DNA of 64,000 bases, from positions 9,178,233 to 9,242,232 of the forward strand of contig NZ_CP121650.1 in the NCBI RefSeq assembly GCF_029714405.1, in the 5' to 3' direction. The notes below the pieces were generated by a model. The model saw only the letters and a program-made list of their open reading frames with translations, made no database searches and was not told where the DNA came from. Source of the DNA: Bradyrhizobium sp. CB82. GTDB lineage: Bacteria > Pseudomonadota > Alphaproteobacteria > Rhizobiales > Xanthobacteraceae. This document shows positions 40,749 to 46,789 of this stretch, piece by piece. Every line of letters starts with the position of its first letter. The first letter of the stretch is position 1. The position numbers and the translations under genes are program-made.

Positions 40749-41264
40749 TCACTTGCCCGAAAAGAAATGTCGGCTAACCCGCTCAAGCGCAGCATCCGGG
40801 CCAAGAGTGCCGGTGTCCACAATGAACAGCCGGTACCTTGCGGCGATGTCGGCAAATATCCTGCAGAACCGCCCATGGTCCTCGGCAGACCAGATATCGC
40901 GGCCGCGCTCCGCTAAGCGCACGACCGTCAGATCGGCTGGAGACCAGCAAATCACCGTCCGCTCCGCGAATGGTAGGCGATCGGGCCAGTTGCTGCCATC
41001 GAGCAAGGACAGTGTCGAGGGAATCAGTCGATCGAACACCGTCGGGCGTTCCGCGTTCTGTTCAACGGCGTGATCGCTGATGATCCGTCGGAACGCCAGC
41101 AAATCGGTGGTCCGGCCCTTCCGATAAAGCCACGCATTGACCTCGCCCGTCACACCATCAAACGGCTTCACATAGGCCAAGCCCAGGCTTGCGGCGATGG
41201 AACGGGCCAGCGTCGTCTTGCCGGAGCCGGCATGGCCATCGATGATGATGCTCTGTGGATGCAT
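40749..41264 (-). CDS. Small P-loop kinase/ATPase in the peptide cluster
   Basis: A 171-residue protein with a Walker A loop DGHAGSGKTTLARSIAASLG (Gly10-Thr18) and a compact size like nucleoside or shikimate-type kinases. A DRLIPSTLSLLDG segment and DLTVVRLAERG (lid-like arginines) are seen; the acceptor is unknown. It is the last gene of the minus-strand operon, 36 bases behind the PurC-like gene. Nucleotide or small-molecule phosphorylation is the family-level expectation; the role in the pathway is inference. Confidence 0.7.
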   Translation of the reverse strand: MHPQSIIIDGHAGSGKTTLARSIAASLGLAYVKPFDGVTGEVNAWLYRKGRTTDLLAFRRIISDHAVEQNAERPTVFDRLIPSTLSLLDGSNWPDRLPFAERTVICWSPADLTVVRLAERGRDIWSAEDHGRFCRIFADIAARYRLFIVDTGTLGPDAALERVSRHFFSGK

Positions 41265-41300
41265 GGCATGATCGGAAAATGCGGCACGCCGACCGCCGCT

Positions 41301-42107
41301 CTATGCGGCGATCAGGTCCAGAAATTGCCGCCAGCCGTCGCTTACTTCGGCCCGGGAGCGGCCCTTTCGCCACAGATCCTTGTCAAGGTCGCTGCCCAAA
41401 TATTTGCAACGCATGCAGTCGGGAGAGACTTCTCCGAAAATGGTGCGTCCGCTGGCGTCGATGAAGAAGCAGATATCCAGGATTTCGATCCGGCGCTTGG
41501 AGAGGAATGAGCGCAACGCCCCGAAGGCGGCGAGCGCGGTTTCCGTGGCGGCCTCGATGTCGATGAACCGGTTCGCCAGCCAGAGCGGCATGCACTCGTC
41601 CTTGTGGGGCAGCGGATTTCGCCAATCGAAACGCACATAGGCCGGATGTTGTGCTCCGATCCGGAGTGGCAGGCCGTCGCGAGTCCGATGCTCGGTGATG
41701 CCGTGGTAGAGGTGGACAGGCGTGCCGACAAGGGCTGCCTTGACGATGGTTTCGACCGGAGGCGCGTCGACATAGGGGGCGACGTAACAGTCATGGGCGA
41801 CGTCGAGCACTCCGATGCTGAGACCCGCATCGCGCAGCACTTGCCACAGGATGGCGCTGGCGGACAGTCGCAGCGCCTCGGTCCCCTCGACCGATTCATA
41901 CCGATTGGCGCTCATCGAATAGATCGTCGGCTTGAACTTGATAGCGACAAGGCCCGGCGCGAGTTCACGCAGAATCTTGGACTCGCCCTCCTGGACCAGA
42001 GGGAGAGCGTCGAACCGCGCGCTTGCGTCCGCCGCAAGTCCCGCGGACGCAATCGGGCCGAATTCCGGAGCTGTCAGAGTCAGGGCTGCCAAGTTTTCTC
42101 GCGCCAT
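41301..42107 (-). CDS. PurC (SAICAR synthetase)-like protein
   Basis: A 268-residue relative of phosphoribosylaminoimidazole-succinocarboxamide synthase. Matching blocks are EGESKILRELAPGLVAIKFKPT (residues 40-61), FIDASGRTIFGEVSPDCMR (215-233, cf. PurC DEISPDTCR) and LDKDLWRKG (241-249). The PurC block around EvvVRN is replaced by AYVRFDWRNPLPHKDE (156-171). PurC joins a carboxylate to aspartate using ATP, so an amide-forming ligase acting on another substrate is likely. The genome's true purC is expected elsewhere; this copy is divergent and lies in the peptide operon. Confidence 0.72.
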   Translation of the reverse strand: MARENLAALTLTAPEFGPIASAGLAADASARFDALPLVQEGESKILRELAPGLVAIKFKPTIYSMSANRYESVEGTEALRLSASAILWQVLRDAGLSIGVLDVAHDCYVAPYVDAPPVETIVKAALVGTPVHLYHGITEHRTRDGLPLRIGAQHPAYVRFDWRNPLPHKDECMPLWLANRFIDIEAATETALAAFGALRSFLSKRRIEILDICFFIDASGRTIFGEVSPDCMRCKYLGSDLDKDLWRKGRSRAEVSDGWRQFLDLIAA

Positions 42108-42151
42108 GTCGCCGTCTCCACCACACCGGTTTCCGCCGTTCCGATCCCGCT

Positions 42152-44762: not shown

Positions 44763-44788
44763 CTCTTTTGCTCCAGGGCTTGGTCGGT

Positions 44789-45415
44789 TCAATAGGTCGC
44801 GCGCGTCCACATCGACTGCTGCGGCGCAGGCGGTGCGCAGGCTGAGGGCATCGCGCAGGCGGACATCGGCGGTGCGCAGGCCGAAGGCATCGCGCAGGCG
44901 GACATCGGCGGTGCGCAGGCCGAGGGCATCGCGCAGGCGGACATCGGCGGTGCGCAGGCCGAGGGCATCGCGCAAGCCGACATCGGCATTGCGCAGGCCG
45001 AAGGCATCGCGCAGGCGGACATCGGCGGTGCGCAGGCCGAAGGCATCGCGCAGGCGGACATCGGCGGTGCGCAGGCCGAGGGCACCGCGCAGGCGGACAT
45101 CGGCGGTGCGCAGGCCGAAGGCATCGCGCAGGCGGACATCGGCGGTGCGCAGGCCGAGGGCATCGCGCAGGCGGACATCGGCGGTGCGCAGGCCGAGGGC
45201 ATCGCGCAAGCCGACATCGGCATTGCGCAGGCCGAACCGGTGGGCATAGCACACGCAGAGTGCATCATGTTCACTTCCCCTTCCTTCGTCGGTTGGCTGC
45301 TTGCGGGTGCATCCCGCGGTTGAACTGGCGGCGTCTCGGCTGCGCTCTTCGCAGCTTCGCCTGTGGCCGCTTCCCTGCTCGCCTTGGCATCATCTTTTGG
45401 GGTGTTGGATGGCAT
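44789..45415 (-). CDS. Cysteine-repeat precursor peptide, 22 copies of SACA
   Basis: A 208-residue product. Residues 1-51 form a charged, cysteine-free leader-like part (MPSNTPKDDAKASREAA..., Lys/Glu/Ala/Pro-rich). From residue 53 the sequence is built from Ser-Ala-Cys-Ala-X-Pro units: two singles, then ten copies of the 13-residue block MSACAMPSACAPP (residues 67-196) with two substitutions (AVP once, AMP for APP once), and a tail APQQSMWTRATY. AAGGGAGG lies 7 bases before the ATG, an excellent site. It lies between a PLP-enzyme gene and a radical SAM/SPASM gene with gaps of 21 and 26 bases. The design fits a RiPP substrate with many repeated cores; no known family is recognised. Confidence 0.8.
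   Translation of the reverse strand: MPSNTPKDDAKASREAATGEAAKSAAETPPVQPRDAPASSQPTKEGEVNMMHSACAMPTGSACAMPMSACAMPSACAPPMSACAMPSACAPPMSACAMPSACAPPMSACAVPSACAPPMSACAMPSACAPPMSACAMPSACAMPMSACAMPSACAPPMSACAMPSACAPPMSACAMPSACAPPMSACAMPSACAPPAPQQSMWTRATY
44828..45217. repeat. Ten tandem 39-bp units inside the precursor gene
   Basis: Ten head-to-tail copies of a 39-base unit (13 codons) encode residues 67-196 of the precursor. Copies differ only at a few bases, for example GGCATTGCGCAGGCC variants. Because 39 is a multiple of three and the unit lacks stops in most frames, several frames stay open through it and give long artificial ORFs on both strands. Copy number is likely to vary by slippage or recombination. 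Confidence 0.95.
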
Positions 45416-45436
45416 GCTACTGCCTCCCTTGGAGGG

Positions 45437-46789
45437 TTAACCCGGCGCCAGCGAAGCGGCGATGGTGCGGGTCGCGTCGATGAAGGTGTCGATCTCTGAC
45501 ATATCGTTGAAGATGTTGGTCGACGCGCGAATTGCATACAGCGTCGAGCCGGACATTCCGGGAGGAGCCGGAAACTGGGTGCTGCGCACGTAGATGCGAT
45601 CCTTGCTCCACAAGGCGCTGACCACGGCGTTGATGAAATTCGAATCCAGCCCGGCCGCGGGATTGACCGACGGGACGAAGCTCGCCATTCCCGAGCTCAA
45701 CTCAGGGTGCTCGGCGGCGGGACTGAACAAGGCCGTCTCTCCCCAGGTCTCCACGATCCGGCGCTTGGCGTAGGTATTCATTGCCAGAATGTGCTGCTCG
45801 ATCGCTTCGCGGCCGATATCAGCGTCGAACTTCGCTGCTTCCACCATGGCAGCAAACCCCGGGGTGTTGTTGCAGCCGCGGATCTGAAGATCCGTGCTGA
45901 TCGGATACTGACCCAGGACGGGGGTGTATTCCGTCAGGATCGGCCACAGCTTCGTCGGGTTCAGGACGGCATCGCGCACATAAAGCACGCCCGTGCCGGG
46001 AGGACCGTTCAGCCATTTGTGCCCCGAGCAGGCGTAGAAATCGCAGCCGATCGCCGAAAGGTTGAGCGCGAGCGTGCCAAGCGCATGCGCGCCGTCGATG
46101 ACTGTCAGGATCCCGCGGCTCCTGGCGAACGCGCAGACCTGCTCGACCGGAAATCGGGTGCCCGTAGTCCAGGTGATGTGGGACAGCGCGATGACCTTGG
46201 TTCGCGGGGTGACGGCGTTACGGAAGAGCTCAACGACGCTCTCGGCGTTATTCAAAGGTGTCGGCACCGGGAGCTGCCTGAAGATGACGTTCCAGCGCTT
46301 CTGCAGGAGTGTGAGGGGCGCCAGCAGCGACCAGTGCTCCTGGTCGGTCGTCAGGATCTCATCTCCTTCAGCCAATGGCAGCCCGAGCAGCGCCATGGCT
46401 AGTCCCATTGTGGTGTTGTTGGTCAGGACGATTTCAAGTGGAGCGGCGCCAACGAACTTCGCGATGGCGGCGCGGTTGAGTTGTTGATTTTCCCCGAACC
46501 GGGGGCTGTCGAAGAAGCAATAGCTGGGATTCTGAGCCCAAGTCAGATTGTCGCTCGCATAGCGATCGAGTATCGGACGCGGCATCGACCCTTCCGATCC
46601 CGAATTCATGTAGATCATGCCGGGCGGTAAGACGAAATGTGCACGGACGGACTGCCAGTCGACTTCCTCCGGCGGGAAAGATCCCAGCGGCCGAATGGAA
46701 GGCTTGTCCTGGCCGGGCGCGGCATCGCTGGTGCCACCCAGTGCGCGGCGCGAACGCTGAAGCTGTTCCAGATGGCTGCGGATCGACAT
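45437..46789 (-). CDS. Class-V PLP-dependent enzyme (isopenicillin-N epimerase / cysteine desulfurase-like)
   Basis: A 450-residue fold-type I enzyme. The PLP lysine is Lys258 in ACSGHKWLNGPPGTG, and the ring-nitrogen Asp232 with His235 is in IDGAHALGTL. TNNTTMGLAMALLGLPLAEGDEIL and HITWTTGTRFPVEQV are typical of the CefD/desulfurase group. Unlike cysteine desulfurases no mobile catalytic-loop cysteine is apparent to me. It is the first gene of the tight operon, 21 bases ahead of the cysteine-rich peptide, so it may act on a residue of the peptide or on free cysteine. Confidence 0.85.
   Translation of the reverse strand: MSIRSHLEQLQRSRRALGGTSDAAPGQDKPSIRPLGSFPPEEVDWQSVRAHFVLPPGMIYMNSGSEGSMPRPILDRYASDNLTWAQNPSYCFFDSPRFGENQQLNRAAIAKFVGAAPLEIVLTNNTTMGLAMALLGLPLAEGDEILTTDQEHWSLLAPLTLLQKRWNVIFRQLPVPTPLNNAESVVELFRNAVTPRTKVIALSHITWTTGTRFPVEQVCAFARSRGILTVIDGAHALGTLALNLSAIGCDFYACSGHKWLNGPPGTGVLYVRDAVLNPTKLWPILTEYTPVLGQYPISTDLQIRGCNNTPGFAAMVEAAKFDADIGREAIEQHILAMNTYAKRRIVETWGETALFSPAAEHPELSSGMASFVPSVNPAAGLDSNFINAVVSALWSKDRIYVRSTQFPAPPGMSGSTLYAIRASTNIFNDMSEIDTFIDATRTIAASLAPG

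Follow-up and report, generated by a model that had tools for sequence, protein, structure and literature searches.

Organization of the operon

The window is a stretch of 64,000 nucleotides from Bradyrhizobium sp. CB82 (contig NZ_CP121650.1, positions 9,178,233 to 9,242,232). At 40749-46789 it carries an operon of six collinear open reading frames (ORFs), all on the minus strand according to the ORF list and translations. In order of transcription these encode a class-V pyridoxal phosphate (PLP) enzyme, a cysteine-rich repeat peptide, a radical S-adenosylmethionine (SAM) enzyme with a SPASM domain, a fusion of a MazG-like domain to a methyltransferase, a PurC-like ligase and a P-loop kinase-like protein. 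Successive genes are separated by 21, 26, -26 (an overlap), 44 and 36 bases. A preliminary description of this DNA had reported six minus-strand genes with small gaps or short overlaps, and its frames and spacings hold.

A precursor peptide with a regular cysteine array

The precursor ORF, 44789-45415, encodes 208 residues with 22 cysteines. Its translated N-terminal part, residues 1-52 (45260..45415, minus strand), is polar, contains no Cys and would act as a leader. The core that follows (44789..45259, minus strand), delimited by tandem repeats and motif counts, consists of 22 S-A-C-A-[M/P/V]-P units plus a C-terminal tail (APQQSMWTRATY), and its motif is common to the related loci L024, L025 and L027. 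At the DNA level the array is a 39-bp tandem repeat in 10.4 copies (44829-45235). The frame for a cysteine-rich repeat peptide given in the preliminary description is confirmed. Cysteines are spaced by 6 or 7 residues, once by 8, and all 22 have Ala at -1, Ser at -2 and Pro at +2 or +3.

The array can be read through in each of the three minus-strand frames, as the repeat unit has a length divisible by three and contains no stop codon. The motif [STN]AC occurs 22 times, against a mean of 1.05 and a maximum of 5 in 2000 shuffles of the core. When the codons of the ten full units are compared pair by pair, synonymous/nonsynonymous differences number 74/18 in the SACA frame and 9/92 and 16/76 in the other two minus-strand frames. 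The counts derive from 8 variable columns, of which 5 are third codon positions, and so represent few independent events. The codon differences and shuffles together rule out a chance or out-of-frame repeat, and the SACA frame looks to be under selection. A protein search with the repeat peptide as query returned no match at E <= 1e-3.

The radical SAM/SPASM enzyme

Directly downstream lies the gene for a radical SAM/SPASM enzyme of 474 residues (43338..44762, minus strand), recognized by Pfam Radical_SAM (E 2e-13), by its invariant cysteines and by its best solved match, 5wgg (E 2e-33), which we take to be the SCIFF maturase CteB. The frame extends to an upstream GTG (43338-45254); relatives favour the ATG start at 44762. 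In the numbering of a 481-residue frame, the CX3CX2C motif comprises C105, C109 and C112. An alignment of 25 sequences including the one from the window has invariant C340-x9-G-x4-C355 and C402-x2-C405-x5-C411-x3-C415...C434, plus C337. Compared with the seven-cysteine SPASM consensus, the predicted cysteine pattern matches a full SPASM domain, in agreement with what had been proposed at the outset; the Pfam SPASM model itself gives E 0.054, 14.2 of 21.5 bits.

Among the 25 of 59 NCBIfam matches listed for this enzyme, none reaches its cutoff. The best are the PapB maturase model NF047865 (100.4 of 340 bits) and the SCIFF maturase model TIGR03974 (95.8 of 425 bits), and the curated cutoffs rule out membership in the PapB, SCIFF and CefB families.

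The family defined by this enzyme is rare and widely scattered. A protein search found 26 clear relatives (P0121-P0146) with 39-91% identity and at least 321 bits, the next score among the 120 of 145 matches listed being 102 bits. A scan of genome contigs with the alignment confirmed 196 stretches; among the best 80, seven belong to the family (L024-L030, 40-51% identity), and the other loci (L031-L103, at most 35% identical) were excluded from family counts. When the single protein was used to scan genome contigs, 21 stretches matched the pattern and none was confirmed. In viral contigs none of 34 candidate stretches was confirmed as belonging to the family, and at E <= 1e-40 the enzyme was found in 0 of 390 other genomes of the same taxonomic family and 0 of 384 others of the same class, two overlapping samples.

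Related loci and the shared repeat unit

The locus in Roseospira marina (L024) encodes a class-V PLP enzyme, repeat peptide, radical SAM enzyme, MazG-methyltransferase fusion and PurC-like protein in the same order as the window, but no kinase; its peptide has 13 cysteines in TACAPA/TACAPAM units. A metagenome-assembled genome (MAG) from Bacteroidales encodes a 23-Cys peptide, a radical SAM-MazG fusion, a class-V PLP enzyme and a free methyltransferase. Anaeromicropila populeti has a 20-Cys peptide with an exact period of 6, mainly [SN]ACSP[VE], followed by a radical SAM-MazG fusion, a class-I PLP enzyme and a cyclase-family protein. In Treponema (L026), an 85-residue peptide with SCAPPACAPSCAPH lies behind an AAGGAGG site, together with a radical SAM-MazG fusion and a class-I PLP gene on the opposite strand. 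L030 resembles this Treponema locus, the comparison covering L030 without its upstream sequence. In Synergistaceae L028 (13907-16685), two proteins with Cys-bearing C-terminal tails (e.g. DACAAKACAVNA) directly precede a second, different radical SAM gene.

A frame with at least four ACxP/ACxxP motifs occurs, among 144 loci, only in L024, L025, L027 and the window copies L001 and L104; L031-L103 contain no ACxP-rich frame. Cysteine is preceded by [STN]-A in 22/22 cases in the window, 12/13 in Roseospira and 20/20 in Anaeromicropila. In these three arrays together, Ala stands at -1 of 55/55 cysteines, Ser/Thr/Asn at -2 of 54/55, Ser/Thr/Asn at +4 or +5 of 52/55, and Pro at +2 or +3 of 55/55. 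The unit thus reads [STN]-A-C-[AS]-(x)-P in the predicted peptides. The first Cys of all three regular arrays has Ser at -2; the last Cys of the window and Anaeromicropila arrays has no Ser/Thr/Asn at +4 or +5.

The preliminary description asked whether all six genes stay together; across the window, L024-L027 and L030 they do not always do so. These six loci all have a radical SAM enzyme and a MazG-like domain, and the five whose upstream sequence was covered also have a Cys-bearing peptide. Methyltransferase and class-V PLP genes are shared by the window, Roseospira and Bacteroidales, an in-operon PurC-like gene only by the window and Roseospira, and the kinase gene is in the operon only in the window. 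The RiPP (ribosomally synthesized and post-translationally modified peptide) signature noted earlier, a precursor next to a radical SAM/SPASM gene, is found again in other phyla, along with this [STN]-A-C unit.

PLP enzymes

The first gene (45437..46789, minus strand) encodes a class-V PLP enzyme of 450 residues, predicted to be of C-S lyase type (Pfam Aminotran_5, E 1e-47). The SGHK lysine is at position 258, and no Cys follows residue 306. SufS-type desulfurases carry their catalytic Cys in a C-terminal loop motif, and a cysteine desulfurase SufS (TIGR01979, 143.7 of 475.1 bits) was rejected on both score and missing Cys. The best solved relatives are the L-cysteine/cystine C-S lyase structures 1elq/1n2t (E 9e-33 and 6e-32), so that the predicted enzyme is closest to cysteine/cystine C-S lyases. 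It is 50% identical to the Roseospira and 41% to the Bacteroidales counterpart. EgtE and PvdN models occur below cutoff among its NCBIfam matches. By eye, the Roseospira enzyme (L024:8009-9382) begins with RRRRFLAG and a hydrophobic stretch that resembles a twin-arginine translocation (Tat) signal; the two enzymes may differ in compartment, since the window copy lacks the hydrophobic stretch. The class-I PLP enzyme of Anaeromicropila has cysteine-S-conjugate beta-lyase, PatB and cystalysin among its solved relatives. Two PLP families, each with C-S lyases as near solved relatives, therefore adjoin the same radical SAM family.

The MazG-like/methyltransferase fusion

The fusion ORF, 42152-43363, joins a MazG-like domain (about residues 14-122; 42998..43324, minus strand), delimited by a 15-sequence alignment, profile search and Pfam, to a SAM-dependent methyltransferase domain (about residues 165-403; 42152..42871, minus strand; Methyltransf_25, E 1e-15; best match of the predicted model, 7wzg). 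In Roseospira the MazG-like domain is likewise joined to the methyltransferase, and in Bacteroidales, Treponema and Anaeromicropila to the C-terminus of the radical SAM enzyme. The two fusion types link the predicted MazG-like, methyltransferase and radical SAM activities.

Pfam MazG is weak for the single window protein (E 0.29). The aligned domain, used as a profile, finds the solved nucleotide pyrophosphohydrolase 5ie9 at E 1e-5, and on this the earlier MazG-like assignment stands. Pfam matches of the domain include MazG-like, MazG and PRA-PH, all weak; MazG-like matches 11 of 15 members at E <= 0.1, the best at 2e-4. Twenty-four columns are invariant in 15 sequences from both fusion types, including E43, E48, K51, Q52, D55, E64, R71, N86, E87 and D90. 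MazG/HisE-type pyrophosphohydrolases use four acidic metal ligands; D55, E87 and D90 are invariant, but Q52 occupies one expected acidic position; E48 is invariant as well. The predicted model of the fusion (mean pLDDT, the predicted local distance difference test score, 76) has helices at 18-129. Its closest fold is 7wzg, CypM, the cypemycin N-terminal methyltransferase; the best 50 matches listed are all methyltransferases, and among them the MazG-like part is unmatched.

The PurC-like ligase and the P-loop kinase

The PurC-like ligase (41301..42107, minus strand, 268 residues) is assigned to the SAICAR-synthetase fold by Pfam, alignment and a predicted model. PF01259 scores 22.4 bits against a gathering cutoff of 20, and the model (pLDDT 91.6) superimposes on SAICAR synthetase 2z02 with a template modelling (TM) score of 0.78 at 20% identity, which bears out the earlier assignment. 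E226, D230 and D242 are invariant in the family, and K243/D244 nearly so. The operon context argues against a housekeeping role in purine synthesis. The last gene (40749..41264, minus strand) encodes a P-loop kinase-like protein of 171 residues. The frame and the P-loop, GHAGSGKTT, are present as previously described; matches to kinase families are weak and below cutoff. This protein is 31% identical to proteins beside PurC-like genes in another member of the genus (G212) and in Bacteroidales (L145), and three PurC-like relatives (P0062, P0080, P0090) have an N-terminal P-loop with a kinase-like stretch by eye.

PurC-like proteins occur in all four genomes with long repeats, within the operon in the window and Roseospira and at another locus in Bacteroidales and Anaeromicropila. 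At E <= 1e-15, they are found in 0/197 and 0/195 other order members of the Bacteroidales and Anaeromicropila samples (Fisher 0.005 each); the single positive genome in each (1/198 and 1/196) is the peptide-bearing one. In the class sample of the window the only positive among 372 genomes is the window's own. The radical SAM genomes of Treponema and Synergistaceae yielded no PurC-like protein. Within the genus, 11 of 264 other genomes have one, ten at 52-55% identity and G212 at 42%. At six of seven inspected loci the downstream protein, of 241-266 residues, is a HAD-type phosphatase by eye; at the seventh, in G212, a relative of the window kinase stands beside the PurC-like gene.

On Bacteroidales contig C7 of G949 (L145:6372-11741) the order is an unassigned gene, PurC-like, a second unassigned gene, kinase-like, HisG, HisA and HisIE, and both unassigned genes and the gene order around PurC-like recur in G212. 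The Anaeromicropila PurC-like gene overlaps by 4 bp that of a P-loop protein (L146:7445-8761) whose C-terminal match to DcpS_C (HIT-type) falls just short of the cutoff. In Prevotella phage Lak-A2 (L148:520-4750) PurC-like lies near an RNA ligase, HisG, a kinase-like gene (below cutoff), and Ham1-type and adenylyltransferase-type genes. PurC-like matches occur in 15 of 50,697 phage records, all from Prevotella phages; a PurC-like fragment on a viral contig (L118) was uninformative. Because PurC-like genes stand elsewhere beside kinase-like, HisG and HisIE or Ham1 genes, nucleotide-type chemistry is plausible for the predicted operon products. These neighbours (kinase-like, HisG, HisA and HisIE in one setting; HisG, Ham1 and adenylyltransferase-type in the other) lend independent support to the hint of nucleotide chemistry in the preliminary description.

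Chromosomal site

A tRNA-Arg (CCG) gene at 40610..40686 on the plus strand (ARAGORN) marks the insertion site. A blastn comparison of the window with L117 shows a 6,775-bp segment, 40687..47461, that starts at the 3' end of the tRNA gene, contains the whole operon plus about 670 bp upstream of it, and is missing in relative G197, where the counterpart of position 47462 directly follows the tRNA-Arg 3' end. As to direct repeats at the ends of the insertion, the two blastn matches overlap by 9 bases in G197, the sequences being similar, not identical. No integrase-like ORF was noticed in the insertion, and no search aimed at integrases was made. Since the operon occupies one insertion at a tRNA gene, it is likely to have moved as one unit. 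For each of two metagenome entries from the same source, P0002 (PurC-like, 82%) and P0122 (radical SAM, 87%), the longest contig given is 4,778 bases; presumably they lie on one contig, consistent with the operon as a unit.

Judged by match positions, the flanks of this site are separated by nothing in G197 and by roughly 0.6 to 35 kb in other relatives, so that the 3' end of the tRNA gene resembles an insertion hotspot. A dispersed element of about 115-150 bp, at about 48027-48181, has many copies in this and related genomes. Beyond the tRNA gene, 35055-40282 contains genes that by eye resemble an ordinary ABC transporter of the branched-chain-amino-acid type. A promoter scan gave 1 match against 1.3 expected and thus no support. 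None of the 127 plasmid records matched reaches 60% identity, and the ten listed stay under 30%. Searched against a defence library, the operon gave low-scoring matches to the DndA/SspA, viperin and mads models, which we read as superfamily-level likeness.

Interpretation

A small precursor gene stands beside a predicted peptide-modifying enzyme across species, one general criterion for a RiPP (the window, L024, L025 and L027, and L026 with its 4-Cys peptide). The operon is best read as representing a new class of multi-core RiPPs in which predicted radical chemistry acts on cysteine. That the operon makes such a RiPP by predicted Cys-centred radical chemistry, and finishes it by sulfur, methyl and nucleotide-type chemistry, we hold at a probability of roughly 55%.

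The pathway we propose builds on the adjacency of precursor and radical SAM genes in the window and its distant relatives and on a repeat motif common to several species. The radical SAM enzyme would perform one Cys-centred C-H functionalization per repeat, most likely forming a thioether to a nearby Ser, Thr or Asn. A crosslink in the PapB direction, Cys first and acceptor after, is possible for most of the predicted repeats and not for all, because Ser/Thr/Asn is missing from +4 and +5 of the last Cys in the window and Anaeromicropila; PapB itself did not accept a motif in transposed order (PMC9413430). Attached either to the radical SAM enzyme or to the methyltransferase, the MazG-like domain may hydrolyse a nucleotide or dock in the same complex, and the methyltransferase, with its predicted fold nearest CypM, might methylate an amine. 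Since PLP enzymes require a free amino group, the substrate of the C-S lyase is probably free cysteine or cystine, or else a Cys conjugate released from the peptide. The PurC-like ligase, together with a phosphate-transferring partner in systems that have one, would activate a carboxylate with ATP and form an amide, so attaching or building the last group.

Several observations weigh against this pathway. The Bacteroidales peptide fits the unit loosely: its 23 cysteines have Ala at -1 in 21 cases, Ser/Thr/Asn at -2 in 12 and at +4 or +5 in 11, and Pro at +2 or +3 in 15. The Treponema MAG, which has no PurC-like gene, pairs its radical SAM-MazG fusion with a peptide of 4 Cys only (Ala at -1 in 1, Ser/Thr/Asn at -2 in 0 and at +4 or +5 in 2, Pro at +2 or +3 in 3), and in Synergistaceae L028 and Spirochaetia L029 the radical SAM enzyme has neither the MazG-like domain nor an ACxP-rich peptide beside it. 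By homology, Roseospira has no counterpart of the window kinase, and the P-loop protein next to PurC-like in Anaeromicropila is no clear BLAST relative of that kinase (E 0.26). Hydrolysis by the MazG-like domain is uncertain because its first motif is KQxGD instead of the EEMGE of 5ie9. None of the six proteins reaches cutoff for a protease, transporter or PqqD-type family among the matches listed, and the peptide modification is predicted, with no modified peptide known. Finally, all 11 congeners with a PurC-like gene are without a radical SAM match at E <= 1e-40, in a search that contained no positive genome, the same query finding G000 elsewhere. The dependence seems to run one way: PurC-like accompanies the long-repeat systems (4/4) but needs no peptide system itself (11/11), as would be expected of a ligase that, with its partner, provides a building block.

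The invariant Ala before each Cys would be explained equally well by a backbone heterocycle at Ala-Cys as by a crosslink. The radical SAM enzyme might then convert the cysteine of every A-C pair to a thiooxazole-type heterocycle, as is reported for SbtM, and yield a multi-site metallophore or metal buffer. Ala at -1 in 55/55 repeats of three species and in 21/23 of Bacteroidales is what a reaction at the X-Cys amide would predict, and there are precedents in a radical SAM thiooxazole maker described in the review PMC11002830 and in thiooxazole metallophores installed by nonheme iron enzymes (PMC12668002). We nevertheless regard a metal-binding RiPP as unlikely: the best curated matches of the enzyme are maturases of ranthipeptides (PapB and SCIFF), this reading gives the C-S lyase, MazG-like and PurC-like partners no role, and no metal-transport gene was noticed among the window ORFs, where no dedicated search was made. 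Somewhat more doubtful is a scaffold role, in which the peptide would be a carrier on which sulfur passes from Cys to a different carbon. Proteolysis and the C-S lyase would then free a small thiol, later methylated and ligated, so that the product would be a small molecule and the peptide would be consumed. In favour of this are the two PLP families, both related to C-S lyases, that adjoin one radical SAM family, the sub-cutoff EgtE and PvdN models, and the many near-identical short units, which suit the bulk release of one small product; yet the six operon proteins match no protease family, no intermediate is known, and the lyase may merely supply sulfide.

That the system is no RiPP at all, the repeat protein being structural or storing metal and the enzymes acting on other substrates, seems to us improbable. 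Cys-rich repeats alone can bind metals, and modification of the peptide is so far predicted only; even so, peptide and radical SAM genes are adjacent in three phyla, the enzyme's best matches are peptide maturases, and the motif is common to distant species. Within the favoured reading of a multi-core RiPP, coupling to a nucleotide is a bold, testable and rather speculative extension: a peptide with up to 22 Cys repeats might be joined to a purine- or imidazole-nucleotide-derived group that the PurC-like ligase, the kinase and the HisE/MazG-type domain make or attach.

Comparison with known systems

Radical SAM/SPASM RiPPs are already known; what would be new here is the set of partners and the regular multi-core precursor. 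No paper was found that joins radical SAM RiPPs with MazG, SAICAR synthetase, cysteine desulfurase or multicore, a weak negative, as most subscription journals lay outside the scope of the search. If the RiPP reading is true, the operon represents a rare, widely scattered class whose multi-core precursor is extremely regular, with a Cys at every sixth or seventh residue. A module of kinase and PurC-like protein that ranges from Lak megaphages to Bradyrhizobium would gain a peptide-linked context and a direct route to its substrate. If the nucleotide conjugate is also real, a ribosomal peptide and histidine/purine-type chemistry would meet in one product.

The ranthipeptides (PapB/freyrasin, CteB/SCIFF) share a radical SAM/SPASM enzyme beside a many-Cys precursor, and PapB and SCIFF give the best NCBIfam matches; the window enzyme nevertheless scores far under the cutoffs, and its repeats lack Cys-X3-Asp and show instead [STN]-A-C-[AS]-(x)-P up to 22 times. 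To our knowledge, PapB and SCIFF systems include no MazG-like, C-S lyase or PurC-like partner. The CefB "Cys-every-fifth" maturase (NF038107) is also a radical SAM/SPASM maturase named for a Cys-periodic peptide, but the window enzyme reaches 80.1 of 600 bits, and the cysteines of the window peptide lie 6 or 7, once 8, residues apart. SbtM thio(seleno)oxazole RiPPs and MNIO thiooxazole metallophores resemble the operon in oxidative chemistry on Cys of a ribosomal peptide, here predicted from genes, and differ in that no MNIO-type family is among the matches of the six operon proteins. L-cysteine/cystine C-S lyase and PvdN are among the closest solved relatives of the window PLP enzyme; PvdN is periplasmic according to NCBIfam, as the Tat-like N-terminus of the Roseospira copy would suit, unlike the window copy. 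SAICAR synthetase PurC shares with the window ligase its predicted fold and the conserved E226, D230 and D242, whereas the ligase, so distant from 2z02 in sequence, sits in a peptide operon, and its copies elsewhere adjoin kinase-like, HisG/HisA/HisIE, Ham1-type or HAD-like genes.

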